DNA from: an uncultured Anaerolineae bacterium
GTDB taxonomy: Bacteria; Chloroflexota; Anaerolineae; Anaerolineales; Villigracilaceae
NCBI GenBank assembly: GCA_903854805.1
Contig: CAINXK010000214.1
Coordinates: forward strand, 1 to 8,494
Reading direction: 5' to 3'
DNA: 8,494 nt
Part shown: in pieces, positions 1 to 8,494 of the stretch
Position numbering within the stretch: the first letter of the stretch is position 1
Layout of the letters: every line of letters starts with the position of its first letter
Notes under the pieces: model-generated
The model's input: only the letters and a program-made list of their open reading frames with translations
Told to the model about the DNA's origin: nothing
Database searches by the model: none
Translations under genes and position numbers: made by a program

Positions 1-186
1 AATCATCTCCTGGTTTGGACGCGCTCCCTGGCTGACAGCGCGCAAGGTGGTTGGATAAGTCAGACTGTAGTGTTCATCGCTGGCAGATCTCTGCTTTATC
101 AGGACGGGTGTTTGCTGAATTCAGCCGCGATGTTTGTGTAGCAGACTTTTACTACCCCTTTTATTCTATTCATTATTAATGGGTTT
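1..186. other. Left-edge region without a supported gene
   Basis: No gene can be assigned. Two frames in register on opposite strands are open to the window edge. The plus frame starting at base 1 is open to a TAG at 139-141. The opposite minus frame is open from about 117 leftward and reads like protein (it contains SDEHYSLTYPTTLRAVSQG), but it has no ATG, GTG or TTG start and no ribosome binding site before an in-frame stop. Either could be the edge of a gene lying mostly outside the window. A 12-bp palindrome GCTGAATTCAGC sits at 114-125. Bases 150-186 are AT-rich. Confidence 0.3.
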
Positions 187-228
187 TGCAACTACCAATT
201 TTGGGCGAGTGCGGTTCAAAATTTCGGA
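187..228. repeat. Left terminal inverted repeat
   Basis: Left arm of the element. The core 208-228 pairs with 478-498 (19/21) and the outer part 187-200 pairs with 507-520 (11/14). A short unpaired stretch around 201-207 separates the two blocks. Confidence 0.6.
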
Positions 229-309
229 AAACGCCAGGATTTGTATCTGGGATCTTGCAAAGGGTTTGCCCATAGAAAATATGCGTTGCCTGGCAGGGAA
301 ATGAGGGGT

Positions 310-349
310 TCTGGGTGGAAAAGGGACAGCCGTCCCTTTTCCACCCAGA
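310..349. repeat. Perfect 18-bp inverted repeat with 4-base loop
   Basis: Bases 310-327 pair without mismatch with 332-349 around the loop AGCC (328-331). The stem contains the run GGTGGAAAAGGGAC and its complement. No T-run follows on either strand, so it is not a standard intrinsic terminator. It would form a very stable hairpin in RNA, or a cruciform in DNA. Confidence 0.85.
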
Positions 350-361
350 TTAAGAACTTCT

Positions 362-419
362 CCCTCTCCCGCAGAGCCATCTTTTGTCAGTTTGAATTCA
401 AACTCTCGGCGGGAGAGGG
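362..419. repeat. GC-rich REP-like hairpin
   Basis: CCCTCTCCCGC at 362-372 pairs perfectly with GCGGGAGAGGG at 409-419. After one mismatch, GAG (374-376) pairs with CTC (405-407). The apex is a separate 16-bp palindrome, AGTTTGAATTCAAACT (389-404). The downstream sequence TCGGGGTGAGGG (420-431) together with the stem resembles dispersed CCCTCTCCC/GGGAGAGGG intergenic repeats found in many bacterial genomes. The copy number in this genome cannot be seen from one window. Confidence 0.6.
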
Positions 420-477
420 TCGGGGTGAGGGCAGGTCACAACTGAAAAGCAAGAAATTTGTGCTAATTTTCCCGATC

Positions 478-520
478 TCCGAAAATCTGAACCGCACTCC
501 CAATAGAACTGGTGTTTGCA
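478..520. repeat. Right terminal inverted repeat
   Basis: Right arm of the element, complementary to 187-228. Its last bases overlap the candidate -35 box of the ferredoxin promoter at 516-521, so the element may contribute to expression of the downstream gene. Confidence 0.6.
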
Positions 521-544
521 CAGGATGATAAACATCGCTATAAT
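516..544 (+). promoter_or_regulatory. Candidate sigma-70 promoter for the ferredoxin gene
   Basis: A perfect -10 hexamer TATAAT (539-544) lies 17 bases downstream of TTGCAC (516-521), which keeps the TTG of the -35 consensus. Transcription would start near 551, giving a leader of about 30 bases that contains the Shine-Dalgarno sequence. The -35 overlaps the right end of the inverted-repeat element. This is a pattern match only. Confidence 0.5.
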
Positions 545-567
545 AAACGTGTCCATTCATCTCAAAC

Positions 568-575
568 AAGGAGGA
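568..575 (+). promoter_or_regulatory. Shine-Dalgarno site of the ferredoxin gene
   Basis: AAGGAGGA lies 6 bases before the ATG at 582. It is close to the full anti-SD complement and decides the start in favour of 582 over the in-frame upstream ATGs at 516 and 525, which have no such site. Confidence 0.85.
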
Positions 576-581
576 AGCTTT

Positions 582-977
582 ATGACTCACATTATCACCA
601 GCCTGTGTTTGCGCGATAGCGGGTGCGTAGAAGTTTGTCCCGTGGAGTGCATTACCCCAGGTAAACCACAAGAACAGTGGCCACTTTTTTACATCGACCC
701 GGATACCTGTATCGATTGTGGTGCTTGTGTCCCTGAATGCCCATACGCGGCTATTTTCCCTGAAGACGAAGTCCCGACAGCCTATTCCGCCAAGGGCGGC
801 GAATTTATCAGCCGTGTCGGCCTGAGTGGGCACTATACCGGGACAGATCATCATGGTAAGGCTGTGGTTCTTGAAACCGCCAAACAGCTAACCAAGGGTG
901 AAGCGGTCGACTTTACCGCAGATGTTCAGAGCAATTACGATTATTACAAAAAAGGCCCTGGTTACAGCGCCAAGTAA
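582..977 (+). CDS. Ferredoxin, dicluster type with C-terminal extension
   Basis: A small soluble electron carrier of 131 residues. The N-terminal half carries two iron-sulfur signatures: C9-x5-C15-x3-C19-P, with a further C23, and C43-x2-C46-x2-C49-x3-C53-P (CIDCGACVPECP). Spacing resembles 7Fe/8Fe bacterial ferredoxins. By analogy with Azotobacter FdI, C19, C43, C46 and C49 would hold a [4Fe-4S] cluster, while C9, C15 and C53 would hold a [3Fe-4S], or a [4Fe-4S] if C23 takes part. Residues from about 65 to 131 form an extension without cysteines, ending in YYKKGPGYSAK, which I recognise from longer ferredoxins in Chloroflexota-like genomes but whose role I do not know. The start is set by the strong AAGGAGGA. 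The gene stands alone, is convergent with the next one, and ends in an intrinsic terminator. The redox partner cannot be inferred. Confidence 0.92.
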   Translation: MTHIITSLCLRDSGCVEVCPVECITPGKPQEQWPLFYIDPDTCIDCGACVPECPYAAIFPEDEVPTAYSAKGGEFISRVGLSGHYTGTDHHGKAVVLETAKQLTKGEAVDFTADVQSNYDYYKKGPGYSAK

Positions 978-987
978 TTTATTCAAT

Positions 988-1020
988 AAAAAAAGCCAGG
1001 CTTCGCGCCCGGCTTTTTTT
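988..1020. terminator. Bidirectional intrinsic terminator between convergent genes
   Basis: Seven A residues (988-994) and GCC (995-997) pair with GGC (1011-1013) and seven T residues (1014-1020). One A/C mismatch (998/1010) separates these from the inner GGC/GCG pairing (999-1001 with 1007-1009), around a 5-base loop TTCGC. Because the stem is flanked by A-run and T-run, it can terminate transcription from both sides. It lies 10 bases after the ferredoxin stop and 3 bases beyond the stop of the minus-strand gene. Confidence 0.9.
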
Positions 1021-1023
1021 ATT

Positions 1024-3462
1024 TTAGGGTTGAATTGTTTTTTGCAATACTGCGCTGCCAATGTTTTTTGCGAGTGAGGCTGATTCTTCTTCCAGAATAA
1101 CGACAACTGCCAATGGCGTGCCTGACCAATTGGGGAGAGTTCCTGCCAGATACCAGGTGAGTGCCTGGTTATTACCCGAGCTGCTGCCTTGGTATTCCCA
1201 AAACAATTTTCCGCTGTTTTGCAGTGATTCCGCTACCCGCTTTGCGCCGTCCACCGGCAGGCACTGGACGGATTCTTCTGGTTCAGGCAACACCACCCAG
1301 CCCTGAGCTGGGGTTTCGACCGCATTGGCGATCTTCAAACCGGGGCACAGCCCCTGGTTGCTGATTGCAGCCGCTGCTGAAAGCATTTGAACTGGGCTTG
1401 CGGCCAGGTCCTTGAGGGTTCCTTGGGTTGCTGCAGCCGCAGCGGGAAGGCTTAGCTGGGGTGTTTTATAAAAACCCAACATACCGAATAATTTTTGAAG
1501 CTCTGCATCTGTGGGTTTGGATATACCATAAACGGCATCCCTAAAAGGCTTAATCGCCGGTTCGACCAGGTAAAGGCCCTGGGTGGCGCGATTGAGCAGG
1601 GGCGCATTCGGCAGCCCCGGCAAACTCTCGCCAATGGTATCCAGCAGGTTTGCATCAAAGGTTGGGTGAGAAGCCATCGCCAGGATCTCTCCGGTTTGGG
1701 CATTGACAAGCACAAGCGCGCCTGTATGGTCACCGAGCAGCTCGTCAGCGTGTTTCTGAGTATCCAGGTCGAGAGTTAAGCGAAAGTTTAGGCCGGTGGG
1801 CGGTTGCCCATAAAGCAGGTAATCCCACCAGATCAGCAAGGTAGGGTTGCCCTTCAAGCCGCGCAGGTAAGGGTCGAGCGAGGCTTCCAAACCGGCCTGC
1901 CCATAAATGGCATGCGTATAACCGGCGATAGCCGAGAGCGATGGAACCAGGTAGCTCCGGGAATAACTGCCGGGTTGGCCTGTGGTGATATTAATCGAGC
2001 GATTTTGCCGGTCGAAAAGGGCGCCGCGTAAAACGAAGCGGTCTGCGATGGCGCGGCGCGGGTTGTCAGTGCGGCTGAGCAGGTCGTCGGCGCGAGTTTC
2101 GGCCCACCATCCATTTACGAGCGCACAGGCCAGCAGCCCGGCTCCAATTAAGCGGGCCATATCTAAGTATGGTTTTGGCTGTGGCAGTCCGGCTGGTTCA
2201 TCATCGACTTCATTGCTGATCTGCAGGAGTATAAGCAGCCCAATAAATGATGTCAATAATGAAGAGCCGCCATAAGAGACGAAGGGCAGGGTAACCCCCG
2301 TCAGAGGCAGCAGGCGCAGATTTCCACCAATGATCAGTATGCTCTGAGCGCTGAAGTAGGTCGCGATCCCGGCTGCCAGTAAGCGGCGAAAATTGCTGGT
2401 TGCCCGGATTGCGATCAGAAAGCCGCGCGAGGCAAACAGCCCAATGATTAATAACAGGGCCATACTGCCCAACATTCCGGTTTCTTCGGCGATGCTGGTA
2501 AAGATGAAATCCGAATGCGCCACCGGCACCAGCCCAGGGGAACCCATGCCCGGACCGCGCCCATAGATGCCGCCATTCGCCACTGCCAGGATCGATTGGA
2601 TCACTTGATATGATCGTCCTGAAGGATCGGCCCAGGGATCAATCCAGGCATCCAGGCGGTAGTGGATGATGTCTACAAATGAATAACCCACCAGGGCAGC
2701 GCTGACCAATAACCCCATCGAAATCAGCAGGATGCGGCGTTTTCCGCTGGCCATGTAGACCATGGCAGCATACAGAAATATAAATATACTGGCAGTCCCC
2801 AGGTCACGCTGCGTCAGCAAAATTGCCAGGGCCAGCCCGGTCAATAACATGGAGGGCAACAGCAAAGGTAAAAAGCGGGTTTGGTTTGGAAATCGATCGG
2901 CAAAATATGCTGCTAGATAAACCACCAGTAAGAGTTTGAGCGGTTCAGATGGCTGAAGATAAAGCCCGCAGCAGCCCAGCCAGAGTCGTGGCCCACTGCC
3001 ACCAGGATTTGTGCCAAATATCAGTGTGAGTGCAGTCAGCAGCAGACCGCTGACCAGAAATATGTATTTATATCGCTGTAAGATGACCAGGTTCTGTGGG
3101 AATTTTATCCCTACCACGAAGATGCCGGAGCAAAAAGCCAGCCATAATGCCTGCCGCAGCCCGAAGGCGGGCTCTAATCGCCAAATTGTCAACAATCCCC
3201 ATCCGGCGAGTAAGGCAGCGGCTGGCAACAGGTATGGATCTGCGTCAGGCGTATGTTTGGTTGTCTGCCAGTTGGCAACCCAGACAGCCGAGGCCCAGAT
3301 GGCCAGCCCAAGCCAGTGTGACCAGCGTAGTTCGACATCCCATGTCCGTGCGCGGGCAGCTGGTGCAAGCGTCATTGCCAGGGCATAGATGGATAAAAAT
3401 AGTGCTGCCAGCTTCAGCAGGTGGCTTTGGATTTGAATCGGGGGCGAGTATTTTGAATTCAA
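1024..3462 (-). CDS. RodA/FtsW SEDS polymerase fused to a degenerate PbpA-like PBP
   Basis: A membrane protein of 812 residues. Residues 1-417 are a SEDS peptidoglycan glycosyltransferase with about 12 hydrophobic segments. The motif WIDPWADPSGRSYQ (273-286), with D279 as likely catalytic Asp, lies in the large outer loop, and LPLTGVTLPFVSYGGSS (385-401) is the family signature. After a short cytoplasmic linker (about 418-433) comes another membrane segment (435-453). An outer part like actinobacterial PbpA follows: RGALFDRQ (479-486), GYTHAIYGQAGLE (514-526), LVNAQTGEILAMASHPTFD (585-603) and LLNRATQGLY (622-631). The transpeptidase looks dead: SxxK reads PAIK (635-638), the SxN segment is absent, and the KTG region reads QGSSSG (758-763). 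The start is TTG, the first start codon after an in-frame TAA, without a Shine-Dalgarno; M30 is a poorer alternative. Known family role: lateral wall polymerisation with a cognate bPBP. Confidence 0.88.
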   Translation of the reverse strand: MNSKYSPPIQIQSHLLKLAALFLSIYALAMTLAPAARARTWDVELRWSHWLGLAIWASAVWVANWQTTKHTPDADPYLLPAAALLAGWGLLTIWRLEPAFGLRQALWLAFCSGIFVVGIKFPQNLVILQRYKYIFLVSGLLLTALTLIFGTNPGGSGPRLWLGCCGLYLQPSEPLKLLLVVYLAAYFADRFPNQTRFLPLLLPSMLLTGLALAILLTQRDLGTASIFIFLYAAMVYMASGKRRILLISMGLLVSAALVGYSFVDIIHYRLDAWIDPWADPSGRSYQVIQSILAVANGGIYGRGPGMGSPGLVPVAHSDFIFTSIAEETGMLGSMALLLIIGLFASRGFLIAIRATSNFRRLLAAGIATYFSAQSILIIGGNLRLLPLTGVTLPFVSYGGSSLLTSFIGLLILLQISNEVDDEPAGLPQPKPYLDMARLIGAGLLACALVNGWWAETRADDLLSRTDNPRRAIADRFVLRGALFDRQNRSINITTGQPGSYSRSYLVPSLSAIAGYTHAIYGQAGLEASLDPYLRGLKGNPTLLIWWDYLLYGQPPTGLNFRLTLDLDTQKHADELLGDHTGALVLVNAQTGEILAMASHPTFDANLLDTIGESLPGLPNAPLLNRATQGLYLVEPAIKPFRDAVYGISKPTDAELQKLFGMLGFYKTPQLSLPAAAAATQGTLKDLAASPVQMLSAAAAISNQGLCPGLKIANAVETPAQGWVVLPEPEESVQCLPVDGAKRVAESLQNSGKLFWEYQGSSSGNNQALTWYLAGTLPNWSGTPLAVVVILEEESASLAKNIGSAVLQKTIQP

Positions 3463-3476
3463 AGATAGTGATCTTG

Positions 3477-3482
3477 ATTATA
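3477..3482 (-). promoter_or_regulatory. Candidate -10 box for the rodA-pbp fusion gene
   Basis: The minus strand reads TATAAT from 3482 to 3477, directly after the T-run of the mtnP terminator. No good -35 is seen at 16-18 bases. A start of transcription near 3470 would leave a leader of under 10 bases before the TTG at 3462, which would agree with the missing Shine-Dalgarno. Weak evidence in an AT-rich stretch. Confidence 0.3.
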
Positions 3483-3488
3483 TTTAAC

Positions 3489-3549
3489 AAAAAAACGAAA
3501 TTTGATTTGCGCAGAGTCAGGGAGATCTGGCGCAATTTAATTTCGTTTT
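3489..3549 (-). terminator. Intrinsic terminator of the fhaA-fhaB-mtnP operon
   Basis: Read on the minus strand, AAAACGAAATT (from 3549) pairs perfectly with AATTTCGTTTT (ending at 3492). An inner GCGCAA/TTGCGC pairing follows after a small mismatch, closing on a loop of about 17 bases. The 3' side runs into seven T residues (complement of 3489-3495), followed by GTTAA. The hairpin begins about 9 bases after the mtnP stop. It separates the operon from the rodA-pbp gene. Confidence 0.8.
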
Positions 3550-3558
3550 AGGGTTCTG

Positions 3559-4428
3559 TTACTTTAAGTATTTTCCAACCAAAAGATCCAGCCTGGCACG
3601 GGTTGCCGCCGGGATGACTGCCGGGTTGCTGATCAACGCTTCTGAAAGCGCCTTGTCGCAAGTGCAAGACCTGGGTGTAACGTCAAGGTCGTTGACCAAA
3701 AGGCGCAGCGACTCTTGAGCCGCAGCGGTATTCTTATTGAGAGTCTGGATGACCATATCGACCGTCACAGGTTCGGCGGAAATATGCCATACGTCATAAT
3801 CTGTAACATGCGCCATGGTGCTGTAACACATTTCGGCTTCACGCGCCAAAAAGGCTTCAGGAGAAGCCGTCATGCCGATGATGGACATGCCCCAGGCTCG
3901 AAATACATTCGATTCGGCTTTGGTAGAGAATCGCGGACCTTCGATGGTGATCAGGGTTCCGCCCTTGTGCACGGATGCGCCGCTGCCAGAGACCGCATTG
4001 TAAACCTGCTGGCTAAGCTCCGGGCAGAACGGATCTGCCACACCAACATGCGCGACCATGCCCTGTCCGAAGAATGTGCGCGGGCGTTCGCGTGTATTGT
4101 CAAATATCTGGTCTGGAATGACGATGTCTCCGGGTTTGTAATCCTCACGCAAAGATCCGCATGCGCTGATGCTGATGATCCGGTTTGCGCCGAGCATTTT
4201 TAAGGCGTAGATGTTAGCCCGATAATTGACTTCTGTAGGGGAAATGAAATGCCCGACCCCGTGCCGGGCGAGAAATGCCAGGCGCTTTCCGGCGAGTGTA
4301 CCAATGATGATTGGTGAGCTGGGTTTGCCAAAAGGAGTCTCAACATTATGTTCGCTCGTTTCGGTCAGCCCGTTCATTGTATACAAACCCGAACCACCAA
4401 TGATTGCAGCCGCGAGTAATTCTGTCAT
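3559..4428 (-). CDS. mtnP: S-methyl-5'-thioadenosine phosphorylase
   Basis: Cleaves 5'-methylthioadenosine with phosphate to adenine and 5-methylthioribose-1-phosphate, in the cytosol, as part of polyamine/SAM by-product salvage. The protein has 289 residues, normal for the family. Visible motifs: GGSGLY (11-16, phosphate loop), ARHGVGH (54-60), YRANIYALKMLG (69-80), SACGSL (88-93), EGPRFSTKAES (163-173), GMTASPEAFLAREAEMCY (185-202) and TDYD (209-212), whose Asp residues contact the purine. The PEA..AREAE and TDYD pattern fits MTAP better than the inosine/guanosine phosphorylase branch, but related specificities cannot be excluded. A CTC motif (255-257) resembles the C-terminal CxC of hyperthermophile MTAPs. 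The ATG follows AGGAG by 7 bases. The gene starts 2 bases after the FHA gene stop and is followed by an intrinsic terminator. The link to wall genes is positional only. Confidence 0.93.
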   Translation of the reverse strand: MTELLAAAIIGGSGLYTMNGLTETSEHNVETPFGKPSSPIIIGTLAGKRLAFLARHGVGHFISPTEVNYRANIYALKMLGANRIISISACGSLREDYKPGDIVIPDQIFDNTRERPRTFFGQGMVAHVGVADPFCPELSQQVYNAVSGSGASVHKGGTLITIEGPRFSTKAESNVFRAWGMSIIGMTASPEAFLAREAEMCYSTMAHVTDYDVWHISAEPVTVDMVIQTLNKNTAAAQESLRLLVNDLDVTPRSCTCDKALSEALISNPAVIPAATRARLDLLVGKYLK

Positions 4429-4430
4429 GC

Positions 4431-4883
4431 TTATTCTCCTGTGTCGGGCTGAGTTTCGGATTTGAAGATTACAGTTAACGTGATTTGCCCACACGTAATT
4501 GTATCCCCGTTTGTCACCACTGTGGGCATCTGCAAAGCTTCGCCATTTAAATTTGTGCCGTTGGTCGAAAGTAAATCATCCACCCACCATTGGGCGTGAT
4601 GATAGGCCAGCCTGGCGTGGCGCCCAGATACCGTATTGTGTGCCAGAATACAATCACAATCCGGGTCGCGTCCGATTACCACGCTGCTCTGGGTGAAATG
4701 GGAATGAATATCCTCCAGATCTGGCATGCTGATCAGCAAGTCGATCGGGGTTATCTGGCGCGAAGATAAAGCCTGGGCGTCTTGTTTCAATGAGCGCCAA
4801 AGTAAGAAGAGCGCGCCTCCCAGGAAGGCATAAAGCGCTATGGCAGCGAGGAATCGCAAGCCAAGCAATACAAGTCCGCTCAT
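4431..4883 (-). CDS. FhaB-like membrane-anchored FHA domain protein
   Basis: 150 residues. One hydrophobic segment at about 5-29 (AIALYAFLGGALFLLW) is followed by basic residues, so the C-terminal part should be cytoplasmic. The FHA domain, about 66-140, binds phosphothreonine peptides: GRD (71-73), SGRHAR (86-91) and STNGTNLNG (106-114) are all intact, including the conserved R72, S86, H89 and N108. Size and architecture match actinobacterial FhaB/FipA, which lies next to fhaA and rodA and works in cell growth and division. The start ATG overlaps the TGA of the preceding gene (ATGA, 4880-4883) and has no Shine-Dalgarno of its own, so it is probably translated by coupling. No kinase is encoded in the window, so the phosphorylated partner is unknown. 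Confidence 0.88.
   Translation of the reverse strand: MSGLVLLGLRFLAAIALYAFLGGALFLLWRSLKQDAQALSSRQITPIDLLISMPDLEDIHSHFTQSSVVIGRDPDCDCILAHNTVSGRHARLAYHHAQWWVDDLLSTNGTNLNGEALQMPTVVTNGDTITCGQITLTVIFKSETQPDTGE
4435..4440 (-). promoter_or_regulatory. Shine-Dalgarno site of mtnP inside the preceding gene
   Basis: AGGAGA on the minus strand (4440 to 4435) lies 6-7 bases before the ATG at 4428 and within the last codons of the FhaB-like gene. It fixes the mtnP start and shows that translation of the two genes is closely linked. Confidence 0.85.
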
Positions 4884-5695
4884 GTATTTTTGTCGTTTTT
4901 GGGCTGGGGTCTATTGAAAGTAATTGTGGCTCGCTCACTGGAGGCTGGCGTGAAAGGTGCGGTATCGCCCTTGGCAATCGATGACGGGGGCGAATCTTGC
5001 CCGAAGACAATGGGCAGCCCTGCCAGCGATATCACATCGCCTGGATATAAAATGCTTTGGGTTATCCGCTGTCCATTGACAAACGTTCCGCCGGTGGAAT
5101 TCAGGTCGAAAATCGTGAAGTGGTTGCGAACATAGCGAATCTGAGCATGGTAACGGGATATGCGCGGATCGTCTATCACCAGGTGATTATCGAGTCTGCG
5201 GCCAAGATTGATTACAGCCTGATCGAGGGTGAATACATTTGTACCGCCGATTATTAAAAAGCCTGCCCGAACTGGAGTTTCTTCGCCGCTTGTGGTCATA
5301 TTTTGCGTTTCTGCTACACTCTCTAGTTTACTTGTGCGCACGATCAGGTCGTCAATAGCGAGAGAAGGGTCACTGGCAATCGTCATGGACGGCGCTGATT
5401 TAAGCGTCAGACCCATTTCCGTGGCAACAGTATGGATTACGGTTGTAAGGCCTTCCAGTAAATCTGGTTCTTTTTGCCATAACTCCAGATTGGAAGGGTG
5501 TACTACCAGGATAAACTCAGTCGGAAATGTGATTTCTGGCGGGTTTAGTTTTTGTGTGGATGAATTGGCCTTCAAGGCATCCGCCAGCCGCTGTGCAATC
5601 CAATCCCTGCTAACTGGTTGGGGTAGGAATTTCAACAGGCGCGCTTCGATCAGATCCTGGATCCTTTTTTCGATTTCGTTAAGTTGAATGTTCAT
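4880..5695 (-). CDS. FhaA-like protein, DUF3662 (FhaA_N) plus FHA domain
   Basis: 271 residues, soluble. Residues about 5-120 match the DUF3662/FhaA N-terminal domain in pattern: IEKRIQDLIEARLLKFLPQP (8-27), IAQRLADAL (33-41), PTEFILVVHP (58-67) and a late SDPSLAIDDLIV. A polar linker (about 122-142) contains TT and further T/S residues that could be phosphorylated. The FHA domain spans about 146-232, with LGRR (164-167), SRYHAQI (180-186) and NSTGGTFVNG (199-208). The tail is polar and disordered-looking. In mycobacteria FhaA binds phosphorylated MviN and other wall proteins; that role here is inference. The start at 5695 follows AGGG by 4 bases. In-frame ATGs at 5707 and 5782 lack a site, and the latter lies upstream of the candidate promoter. 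First gene of the operon. Confidence 0.88.
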   Translation of the reverse strand: MNIQLNEIEKRIQDLIEARLLKFLPQPVSRDWIAQRLADALKANSSTQKLNPPEITFPTEFILVVHPSNLELWQKEPDLLEGLTTVIHTVATEMGLTLKSAPSMTIASDPSLAIDDLIVRTSKLESVAETQNMTTSGEETPVRAGFLIIGGTNVFTLDQAVINLGRRLDNHLVIDDPRISRYHAQIRYVRNHFTIFDLNSTGGTFVNGQRITQSILYPGDVISLAGLPIVFGQDSPPSSIAKGDTAPFTPASSERATITFNRPQPKNDKNT

Positions 5696-5719
5696 TTTTC
5701 CCTGCATACCAATAATATA

Positions 5720-5748
5720 ATTATAGAGGTTTATCCTATAAAATACAA
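5720..5748 (-). promoter_or_regulatory. Candidate promoter of the fhaA operon
   Basis: On the minus strand TTGTAT (5748 to 5743) lies 17 bases before TATAAT (5725 to 5720). The expected transcription start is near 5713, giving a short leader of about 18 bases with AGGG before the ATG at 5695. The surroundings are strongly AT-rich, so chance matches are possible. Confidence 0.5.
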
Positions 5749-6026
5749 TTCTATCAGAAATATTGAATAACAACTTTCCCAAGCCATAAATTCTCTGCCT
5801 GTTCTCAAAGCATTTGTCTCAACTGGATACGCTAAGTATAGCCAGTTACCTTTAGCCGGGTGACTGCCCATAACTCAATTGAAACGCACCCTTTTGATTT
5901 CTCCTTTTACTCAGATCTCGGCCATCATTTTCAAGGATACTGCGACGACCTGCGGGATGGCAAACTGGCGCGAAATGTTTTTTCTTCATCGCTAAGCAAA
6001 TCGAGATGGGGGTTTTTCGGTGATTC
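5749..6026. other. Intergenic region between cyclase gene and fhaA operon
   Basis: No credible gene. A minus-strand reading of 45 codons (5989 to 5852, beginning MKKKHFAP) has no ribosome binding site, and its composition does not persuade. A hairpin is visible at 5821-5847: AACTGG and ATAC (5821-5830) pair with GTAT (5836-5839) and CCAGTT (5842-5847), with a 2-base bulge and loop GCTAA. It has no T-run and is not a typical terminator. No intrinsic terminator was found right after the cyclase stop at 6027. Confidence 0.5.
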
Positions 6027-8494
6027 TCACAATATATCATACCTAATAACCTTGTTACGACCTGCTTCTTTGGCGCGGTATAACGCTTGATCAGCCTGAC
6101 TGAGGACCATGTCGAATGATTCCTGGCCATTTGAAAGATTGGCGATGCCTGCGCTGATGGTGAGCGCAACTGGAATGCCGCCCAGATCAAGGGGTTGTGC
6201 CGTTACCGCCAGGCGAACGCGTTCAAGCACTTCATACGCCTGTTCTTGAGATGTCTCCGGCAGGAGCAGGACAAACTCATCACCGCCGAATCGCGCAAAC
6301 ACATCGATTTCACGGATTTGTTTCTGGCATATTTTTGTAAACGCAACCAAAGCCTGATCGCCTGCCGCGTGTCCTAAGGTGTCATTAACCTGCTTGAAAT
6401 GATCGATGTCAATCAGCGCAACGGCGGGTGGGCGTTTGAGCCGAAGCGCGCGTTTTATTTCGCCCTGCGCCAGCTCCATAAAATGACGACGGTTGGATAC
6501 TCTGGTCAGTTCATCTGTCGTGGCCTGTTGGCGCAATTCTTCTTGAAGCTTTTTTCGATCTGTGATGTCGGCAATGATGTGCATTCTTCCAATGACCTGA
6601 CTCTGCTGCCCGCGCAAAGGTGCCACCGACAGACTCACGGGTATCAGATTTCCATTTTTTGTCAAGCGCAGGGTATCCAGATTGCTAAATGCCATGCCGC
6701 TGAGGGTGGCCTGGCGCAGGGCCTCATATTCCTTTAACTTGTTTTCGGGTACGGTGGGATTAGCCTGCCCAAGGATTTGTTTATCCGACCAACCAAACAT
6801 TGCTTCCGCGGCTGGATTCCATATCGTGAGGCGGTCTTCGTAGTCGAGTGCCAGGATTGCCAGCGGCGAGGAATGGATGATGGTCTGTAGAGTATCGCGC
6901 GTGTCACGCAGTTGCTCCTCAGCCCGCTTGCGTGAGGTAATATCCATCATCATGGTCAAGAGGCAAGGTGTATCGTGCAAGATGATCGGGGTGATAAAGA
7001 TGAGCGCTGGAAATATCTCGCCGGATTTTCGTCGTAAACGGATTTCCAGGTTTTCGACGCGCCCATGCGCCTGGATTTCACGAAGGATATTCGGACGCGT
7101 ATCATCGTCCACCCATAAATTCAAGTCAAACGAAGTGCGGCCAACCGTTTCTGCCTGACTGTAACCCAGCACGTTTTCAAAAGAATCGTTGACATCCGTA
7201 TAGAGGCCTTCTGCCGCAGTGCTGACGCCGATGACGATTGGACTGAAACGGAGAATGTTAGCGGTGCGTCTTTCGCTCTCACGAAGTTCCTCTTCCATTC
7301 GCTTGCGCGTGGTGACATCCCGAAATGACCAGACGCGGCCACTGGCCTTCTGCTCTCGGATCAGAATACGCGAAAGCCGCTCAAATACTCGCCCATCCTT
7401 GAAATTCAGGCTGTCGAAACTTTCTTGTTCTGATTGGTAGAGTTCCTGAACCTTGTCAAGAAATTCTTGTGGGTTGATCAATTGCTCAAGGACGTGCTGA
7501 AGGAGAGCCGTATCATCCTTGCGGGCAAGCACTTCCGCTGGGATCTGCCACATTTCAACAAAACGCTCATTCACAAACAAGACCCTATTGTCAGAGTCAA
7601 CCGCGAGAATGCCGTCCGCCGTTGATTGCAGGACTGCTTGAAAGGATGACTCGCTCTTGAGCAATTTTTCTTCCGTGCGTTTGTGCTTGCTGATTTCATC
7701 CTGCAATTGCGTATTGGTTTGATTCAGCAGAGCTGTGCGTTCTTGCACCTGGGTTTCCAGATTGAGATTGAGATCGGCAAGCGCGAGGCGGGTGTGGTTC
7801 AATTGCTGCGTCACGCCAAGCAAAAAGACGACCAGAAGCAACAAGACCACAATACCCGTGCCGGTGGCAATGATTTGCGGTTGGTAGAGCTCCCAAAAGG
7901 AATATTGGCGGTTCTTGACGATGCTATCCGGCGGCAGAAGTGATAAGGGAATACCAAAGCGCTGTAAAGCCAGGTGATCAAAAATAAAGCGGTCGCTCTC
8001 GTCTTGCACAATCGGAATGGAGTTCATCGCCTCAGCGCGCAAAACACGCAAACCGATCTGCGCTGCATCGCGGGCTTGCTGGTCGATGCTGTACATATAC
8101 CCACCGATGATTCCCGTTCCTATGAACACATCGTAGCCGCTGATGACAGGCACAGATGAAGCGGCGGTTAGTTCGCGCAATACAGCCAGAGGACGATACT
8201 TGGTCGCTTCCGCATCCTCGAACATGGGATGGTAAAGAACGATTGAAGTTTTCGGCAGTTTTGCTACCCGCTGTTTGATCTCAGCCAAAGGCAGACCAGC
8301 CATGTCTGTAAACTTCACCTGTTCTTTCAACTCTTCTTGCATTTTACGTAGATGATCAAAAAAACCTTGCTCGATTTTCCCTACCCCACCAACAAGCACG
8401 ATTTCATTGACGGCAGGCATCGCAGTTAATGCCCATTGCACTGATTTTTCGCAATCTTCCACCGCGCTCACGCCGGTCACGTTTGCAGGAAGAT
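6027..8494 (-). CDS. Membrane diguanylate cyclase with ABC-binding-like sensor and three PAS domains (5' end missing)
   Basis: The reading frame is open to the right window edge. Residues are counted from the first GTG at 8480, which is probably not the real start. Domains in order: periplasmic ABC_sub_bind (peripla_BP-like) part to about 190 (TGVSAVEDCEKS, VPVISGYDVFIGTGIIGGYM); membrane segment about 202-222; coiled coil about 225-275; PAS about 278-395; PAS with PAC end about 405-520; PAS about 528-645, the last two closing in DITSRKRAEE and DITDRKKLQE; GGDEF about 650-817. The cyclase looks active: GGDEF (732-736), DIDHFKQVND (691-700) and TTDELT (654-659). R723-E-I-D726 five residues before GGDEF forms an intact inhibitory I-site. 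It should turn GTP into c-di-GMP in response to a small extracellular ligand. No EAL domain. Separate from the fhaA operon. Confidence 0.92.
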   Translation of the reverse strand, partial: LPANVTGVSAVEDCEKSVQWALTAMPAVNEIVLVGGVGKIEQGFFDHLRKMQEELKEQVKFTDMAGLPLAEIKQRVAKLPKTSIVLYHPMFEDAEATKYRPLAVLRELTAASSVPVISGYDVFIGTGIIGGYMYSIDQQARDAAQIGLRVLRAEAMNSIPIVQDESDRFIFDHLALQRFGIPLSLLPPDSIVKNRQYSFWELYQPQIIATGTGIVVLLLLVVFLLGVTQQLNHTRLALADLNLNLETQVQERTALLNQTNTQLQDEISKHKRTEEKLLKSESSFQAVLQSTADGILAVDSDNRVLFVNERFVEMWQIPAEVLARKDDTALLQHVLEQLINPQEFLDKVQELYQSEQESFDSLNFKDGRVFERLSRILIREQKASGRVWSFRDVTTRKRMEEELRESERRTANILRFSPIVIGVSTAAEGLYTDVNDSFENVLGYSQAETVGRTSFDLNLWVDDDTRPNILREIQAHGRVENLEIRLRRKSGEIFPALIFITPIILHDTPCLLTMMMDITSRKRAEEQLRDTRDTLQTIIHSSPLAILALDYEDRLTIWNPAAEAMFGWSDKQILGQANPTVPENKLKEYEALRQATLSGMAFSNLDTLRLTKNGNLIPVSLSVAPLRGQQSQVIGRMHIIADITDRKKLQEELRQQATTDELTRVSNRRHFMELAQGEIKRALRLKRPPAVALIDIDHFKQVNDTLGHAAGDQALVAFTKICQKQIREIDVFARFGGDEFVLLLPETSQEQAYEVLERVRLAVTAQPLDLGGIPVALTISAGIANLSNGQESFDMVLSQADQALYRAKEAGRNKVIRYDIL

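Follow-up and report, generated by a model that had tools for sequence, protein, structure and literature searches.

What becomes of a penicillin-binding protein (PBP) that stays attached to its partner polymerase after its own active site has gone? This question is raised by one gene in a stretch of 8,494 nucleotides from an uncultured Anaerolineae bacterium of the Chloroflexota (contig CAINXK010000214.1 of assembly GCA_903854805.1, positions 1 to 8,494; hereafter the window). According to its open reading frame (ORF) and domain profiles, the gene (1024..3462, minus strand) encodes a SEDS polymerase fused to a PbpA-type pseudo-transpeptidase in a single chain of 812 residues. In this study we show that many environmental Chloroflexota carry a predicted SEDS glycan polymerase joined to a transpeptidase relative without active site, and that this protein has been kept by evolution. 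The best explanation of the whole, to which we give a probability of roughly 60%, is that we are dealing with a third SEDS polymerase whose PbpA partner has turned into a non-catalytic regulator in cis. The evidence consists of the computed architecture, conservation, selection, predicted fold and gene neighbourhood of the fusion, together with the intact motifs of other PBPs in the same genomes.

The frame is open from 3462 down to 1024 with a TTG start, in agreement with an initial annotation of this DNA that described it as intact over 812 codons, and homologues of the same length were found in a protein search. The SEDS domain spans residues 100-418 (2209..3165; this and all further features of the protein lie on the minus strand) and matches Pfam FTSW_RODA_SPOVE (PF01098) with 244.5 bits at a cut-off of 26.4. 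It is followed by a linking helix (residues 430-456, 2095..2175) that, in an AlphaFold2 model, appears to occupy the place of the single membrane helix of a PBP. Next come a highly conserved pedestal or dimerisation region (residues 458-560, 1783..2091), in which N467, R469, R479, G480, G514, G521, L533 and G535 are invariant in our alignment A3, and a transpeptidase-like domain without active site (residues 561-812, 1027..1782), delimited by profile, model and structure comparison. The fusion has both parts of a class B PBP of the PbpA type, the transpeptidase fold and the pedestal. Pfam Transpeptidase gives a fragment match only (38.2 bits, best stretch 581-640), and PBP_dimer_2 stays at 20.3 bits against a cut-off of 27, with a match reported for many relatives. 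The ectodomain is predicted to fold confidently, with a predicted local distance difference test score (pLDDT) of 95.2, and the nearest solved PBP structures by sequence are MrdA/PBP2 entries, then PbpA-type entries including 4n1x and 4mnr.

The loss of the active site becomes apparent when the protein is aligned with intact relatives. The SxxK position (residues 635-638, 1549..1560) reads PAIK, as the initial annotation had it, with P635 in the serine column and K638 in the lysine column. In the window protein no residue falls in the SxN columns, again as proposed, the site of the missing segment being at about residues 644-655 (1498..1533, junction approximate). The KTG columns are Y757-Q758-G759 (1186..1194); the motif had correctly been called lost, although its reading as QGSSSG was shifted by a few residues. 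Two samples show how far this state extends. The protein search gave 5229 relatives at E <= 0.001 among 7999 scored candidates, with 120 listed; 119 of these, 57-80% identical to the window protein and of the same architecture, form with it the 120 rows of alignment A1 (an identical copy, P0002, was left out). The loci L001-L080 come from Chloroflexota; they are the 80 best among at least 592 relatives of the close-homologue alignment and for this reason favour the pseudo form. Two of them belong to cultured environmental species, Thermanaerothrix daxensis (L048) and Levilinea saccharolytica (L025). The absence of a serine at SxxK holds for the window and not for the family: S635 occurs in 39 of the 120 rows and K638 in 14. 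No row has K757 together with G759, and none of the 78 scorable rows of L001-L080 plus the window (three loci lack the region) has both S635 and K638. Among the columns strongly conserved in intact relatives and lost in pseudo forms are S635, K638, K757, T758 and T760. The stretch from the SxxK place to the LGF place measures 18 residues in the window; in L001-L080 plus the window it has 1-25 residues in 31 rows, 36 in 3 and 58-84 in 44, where the SxN place frequently reads GCP, and it is absent in 3 (L049 and L068, at contig ends, and L062).

Two findings had been set beforehand as evidence against such a loss, and neither occurred. No homologue with all motifs intact is present among the 120 proteins and 80 loci, and the possibility that SxxK or KTG lies elsewhere in the domain was rejected, as alignment and structure comparison give no such pair. 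KTG or KSG letters do stand at other places within the final 200 residues of P0031, L036 and L044, and within L001-L080 an S..K near the site is found in L050 only, in shifted position; none of these forms an aligned motif set.

Intact relatives are found further afield. With a profile of the PBP half, 270 of the 301 Chloroflexota genomes searched gave a match of some kind, though the profile matches other PBPs as well, and from the listed matches we chose 60 regions by hand (L111-L170). Five of them hold pseudo forms (L111, L123, L126, L130, L131), and the remaining 55 a PBP whose motifs read, for instance, PGSTFK, SCN/SSN/SDN and GKTGTA. A SEDS frame precedes the PBP on the same strand in 39 of the 55, separate in 38 and fused in one (L113); L141 has it on the opposite strand, and for the other 15 a profile search of the region found no SEDS. 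Scoring as pseudo or intact relied on letter patterns first and then, for A1 and L001-L080 only, on alignment columns. A score could be given to 122 of the 126 SEDS loci, which divide into 74 fused-pseudo, 9 split-pseudo, 38 split-intact and 1 fused-intact, without any mixed case. The four without a score are L049 and L068, which run into contig ends, L062, which lacks a PBP ectodomain, and L141, whose SEDS and PBP are encoded on different strands. L042, cut by a contig end, and L130, with an unaligned C-terminal end, count as pseudo. The resulting 83 pseudo to 39 intact is not a frequency because of how the loci were sampled. In seven of the split pseudo pairs (L070, L071, L074, L076, L077, L078, L080) SEDS and PBP lie in the same reading frame, and a single stop codon parts their stop-to-stop stretches (matching frame only).

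The SEDS half itself had been described as RodA-type, which is only loosely right. What stands is a SEDS domain with its catalytic aspartate: D318 (2509..2511) aligns with the catalytic Asp262 of E. coli RodA (so named in an excerpt of PMC10449877) and is kept in 100% of pseudo, intact and paralogue rows, and W161, Q170 and P313 are kept in 100% of pseudo rows. The nearest solved SEDS structures by sequence are RodA and FtsW. The protein misses the NCBIfam equivalog cut-offs for both (ftsW 248.5 of 337.5 bits; rodA, rodA_shape, 211.3 of 336.7), weak evidence since 6 of 8 FtsW-like or RodA-like paralogues tested miss both too. A quick SEDS tree sets our 126 rows apart from 17 other SEDS, taken from nine genomes carrying the family, with a support of 100 (SH-like approximate likelihood ratio test, SH-aLRT). 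These 17 fall into groups of 8 and 9; eight paralogues were tested, and the best score comes from the FtsW model for the four of the first group and from the RodA model for the four of the second. The SEDS half is hence a third group beside the FtsW-like and RodA-like SEDS of the nine genomes.

Within the family, one group with a support of 99 comprises 85 rows including the window, namely 82 pseudo rows and the unscored L049, L062 and L068. The remaining pseudo row, the fused L123 (L123:1970-4630, minus strand), places its SEDS half among intact rows in the free tree with modest support, and the pseudo/intact state therefore needs two changes on that tree. Constraining all 83 pseudo rows together raises the log-likelihood by 38.5 over the free tree (p-AU, approximately unbiased test, 0.92), so a single motif loss is not rejected. 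Two separate losses are suggested by the free tree only, and a single one fits at least as well; for L123 a convergent loss is possible. Between fused and split, at least six changes are needed on the free tree, which means that fusion or fission was repeated. The intact fusion L113 (L113:2156-5056, minus strand) clusters with split intact pairs, apart from the pseudo group, and is for this reason apparently an independent fusion. As the simplest order we infer that an intact pair lost its motifs, was then fused, and finally had the SxN place shortened in several branches.

Is the domain still under selection? In eight pairs of relatives (74-92% identity) the ratio of non-synonymous to synonymous substitution rates (dN/dS) is 0.024-0.115 for the SEDS half, 0.033-0.130 for the pedestal (computable in 7 of 8 pairs) and 0.069-0.234 for the transpeptidase-like part. 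The synonymous distance dS is saturated in several pairs, including window/L001, and stays at about 1 or below in three (L022/L039, L050/L065, L005/L019). When we compared 33 pseudo with 57 intact PBP rows, samples of different breadth that make the values approximate, the pedestal carried 2.44 bits per column in pseudo against 2.15 in intact rows, and residues 561-634 carried 2.68 against 2.62. The wide conservation, the purifying selection and the confident predicted fold support a maintained pseudo-transpeptidase, fused to a SEDS protein that has its catalytic residues.

In 46 genomes, from 46 of the 80 loci, we counted exactly three SEDS matches in 38, four in 5 and two in 3, some matches of the four-SEDS genomes being contig-end pieces or duplicates. 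Transpeptidase-domain matches number 4 to 11 per genome, a count that may include the pseudo form. Eighteen regions from nine genomes hold 17 class B PBPs; a pattern search recovers SxxK and K[TS]G[TS] in 16 of these, and S-x-N at the expected distance in 12; the PBP of L171 passes the PBP2 cut-off (494 of 455 bits). The exception lies near an FtsW-like SEDS in genome G040, that of L074 (L179:7825-9603, minus strand), in one assembly only. Its motifs are eroded to EPGSIMQ (SxxK lysine to glutamine) and GKPGTA (KTG to KPG), and its relatives L187, L175 and L172 are intact.

The surroundings of the gene resemble those of a rodA-pbpA pair. In order of transcription on the minus strand the window encodes a PAS/GGDEF protein truncated at the window end (8492-6027), an FhaA-like FHA-domain protein (4880..5782; FHA 72.1 bits, FhaA_N 22.4 bits, below the cut-off of 25), an FhaB-like FHA-domain protein (4431..4883; NF049868 FhaB 77.7 bits, below the cut-off of 125), S-methyl-5'-thioadenosine phosphorylase (MTAP; 3559..4494; TIGR01694 311.1 bits, above cut-off) and then the fusion. 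Among loci with at least 4 kb upstream, and not counting the window, the SEDS-PBP unit is preceded by both fhaA and fhaB in 54 of 66 pseudo cases and in 27 of 31 intact ones. The MTAP gene lies upstream of the SEDS-PBP unit in 57 of the 66 pseudo loci versus 6 of the 31 intact ones. A ferredoxin ORF (516-977, plus strand) faces the fusion gene, and a related gene stands downstream on the opposite strand in 18 of the 80 loci L001-L080, many of which are cut short downstream. Rfam gave no match at gathering scores in the window. A scan of 900-6100 found 15 promoter-like (6.0 expected) and 10 terminator-like signals (5.8 expected).

How else might these observations be explained? A sequencing, assembly or frameshift artefact, for which nothing was found to speak, can practically be dismissed, as the architecture is repeated in the 119 aligned relatives and in many separate contigs; the survey of related genomes thus recovered the same fusion with the same motif loss, and an assembly error or recent lesion was rejected. 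It is also most improbable that the PBP half has kept acyl-transfer or penicillin-binding chemistry by means of unconventional residues. The serine found in a part of the rows, accompanied by K638 in 4 of the 120 (P0006, P0009, P0012, P0107), would speak for it, but 12 residue types at column 635 and 15 at column 638 have the look of released constraint, no row combines K757 with G759, and in the window's form the SxN segment is absent altogether. The product of the SEDS half might be a glycan not intended for crosslinking by PBPs, a different or deliberately uncrosslinked envelope polymer, so that the PBP partner lost its chemistry. An enzyme without transpeptidase that is additional to the FtsW-like and RodA-like SEDS would suit such a role; we consider it improbable, though, given that the fusion retains residues on which lipid II polymerisation by E. 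coli RodA depends and that, in intact relatives, the partner of the same SEDS type is a fully motif-bearing PBP.

A more serious, though still unlikely, alternative is a passive remnant, in which the membrane helix, perhaps with the pedestal, is all that matters and the shell of the transpeptidase, at the chain end, is a passenger in decay. Several of our results point in this direction and weigh against a regulator. The dN/dS of the transpeptidase-like part exceeds that of the SEDS half in all eight pairs, conservation of the C-terminal part falls short of that in intact relatives (1.91 against 2.44 bits), and the 31 rows with a short SxN segment are scattered over the tree, as slow decay would also have it. 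In L062 (L062:9947-11428) the SEDS frame stops soon after the linking helix and no PBP ectodomain is found in the whole 21 kb, which means that one lineage at least manages without this domain, possibly as an end point of erosion. Against the remnant stand dN/dS values still far below 1, the conservation of W770, E791, P690, R625 and others in the transpeptidase-like domain, and the confident ectodomain model; moreover, L062 is the only ectodomain-less locus of L001-L080 not explained by a contig end. Further difficulties for the regulator lie outside this domain. The position of E. coli RodA Arg101 is leucine in the fusion (as in 76% of intact rows), and that of His260 is variable (H in 54% of pseudo and 56% of intact rows). 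The fhaA-fhaB pair is missing from the examined stretch in 12 of the 66 pseudo loci, hence control by neighbouring FHA genes is not universal, and PASTA domains occur in 2 of 10 genomes examined, where other kinases were not searched. Finally, we found no experiment on any family member.

On balance we prefer the regulator, and its history might be pictured as follows. A third SEDS glycan polymerase of Anaerolineae-type Chloroflexota would derive from a rodA-pbpA-like pair beside fhaA-fhaB; the transpeptidase active site of the PbpA partner would have been lost in an ancestor, the pseudo-PbpA joined covalently to the SEDS protein in most sampled descendants, and the SxN segment additionally lost in the window's lineage. 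Given a pseudo-PBP attached in cis and the conservation of its pedestal, the most fitting reading is a built-in regulator, in which what is left of the PBP, pedestal and transpeptidase shell, may hold the SEDS protein in an active conformation, or gate it through pedestal-SEDS contact, or both. The FHA proteins encoded alongside possibly control this regulator, and that they relay phosphorylation to the fusion is a guess from the neighbourhood. Other PBPs of the cell would crosslink the strands. A bolder version, which we regard as tentative, is a polymerase-only SEDS machine across the whole clade, in which the former transpeptidase acts as an attached allosteric switch (via the adjacent FHA proteins) and never crosslinks, so that the making and linking of strands are permanently separated in a third pathway. 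Work on the non-crosslinking roles of class B PBPs for SEDS proteins uses laboratory mutants; here the active site was lost naturally throughout a large clade that retains most of the remaining protein, and intact relatives are available as a reference. This provides a natural test of what a PBP partner does besides crosslinking, and it points to the PBP surfaces retained for a non-catalytic role. As the unit is predicted not to bind beta-lactams, polymerisation and crosslinking might be studied separately.

An activator or scaffold role, as the initial annotation proposed, fits published SEDS-PBP biology. For an engineered fusion of E. coli RodA and PBP2, PMC10449877 states that the membrane helix of PBP2 suffices to stimulate RodA, and according to PMC10257715 PBP2 activates RodA via one interface and restrains it via another. 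Natural SEDS-PBP fusions are already known: the excerpt of PMC10449877 mentions single-ORF fusions, its reference 18 being a Rhodococcus genome paper. Class B PBPs with dispensable catalysis are likewise known, from laboratory mutants. For B. subtilis PBP2b (with PBP3) and C. difficile SpoVD S311A, PMC12713402 describes catalysis as wholly or partly dispensable and the protein as needed with its SEDS partner. A fixed pseudo-transpeptidase fused to a SEDS protein did not turn up in our searches of open-access literature, most subscription papers and bioRxiv lying outside them.

Set beside these systems, the fusion differs from B. subtilis PBP2b and C. difficile SpoVD in that their active site is present in nature and the inactive forms were made in the laboratory. 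With E. coli and T. thermophilus RodA-PBP2 it shares a SEDS protein with conserved catalytic aspartate and a class B PBP; however, PBP2 is a working transpeptidase, and natural E. coli RodA and PBP2 are separate. The mycobacterial RodA-PbpA system is alike in having fhaA and fhaB beside the SEDS-PBP unit (a fhaA/fhaB/rodA/pbpA operon is described for Mycobacteriales in an excerpt of PMC11898655), but there rodA and pbpA are given as two genes and PbpA forms acyl-enzymes with beta-lactams according to structure entry titles. The lost active site, the single chain and the MTAP gene between fhaB and the fusion set the window apart. The Atopobium parvulum 'peptidoglycan glycosyltransferase' (4jbf, 4n1x and others) has a PbpA-type domain as well and is probably a natural SEDS-PBP fusion, since residue numbers 523-947 imply a long N-terminal part; unlike the fusion studied here it was solved with penicillins, judging from entry titles, which implies a working acylation site. 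Within the Chloroflexota, L113 likewise carries SEDS, PBP_dimer_2 and Transpeptidase in one open frame, and differs by a full Transpeptidase match (196 bits) with its motifs.
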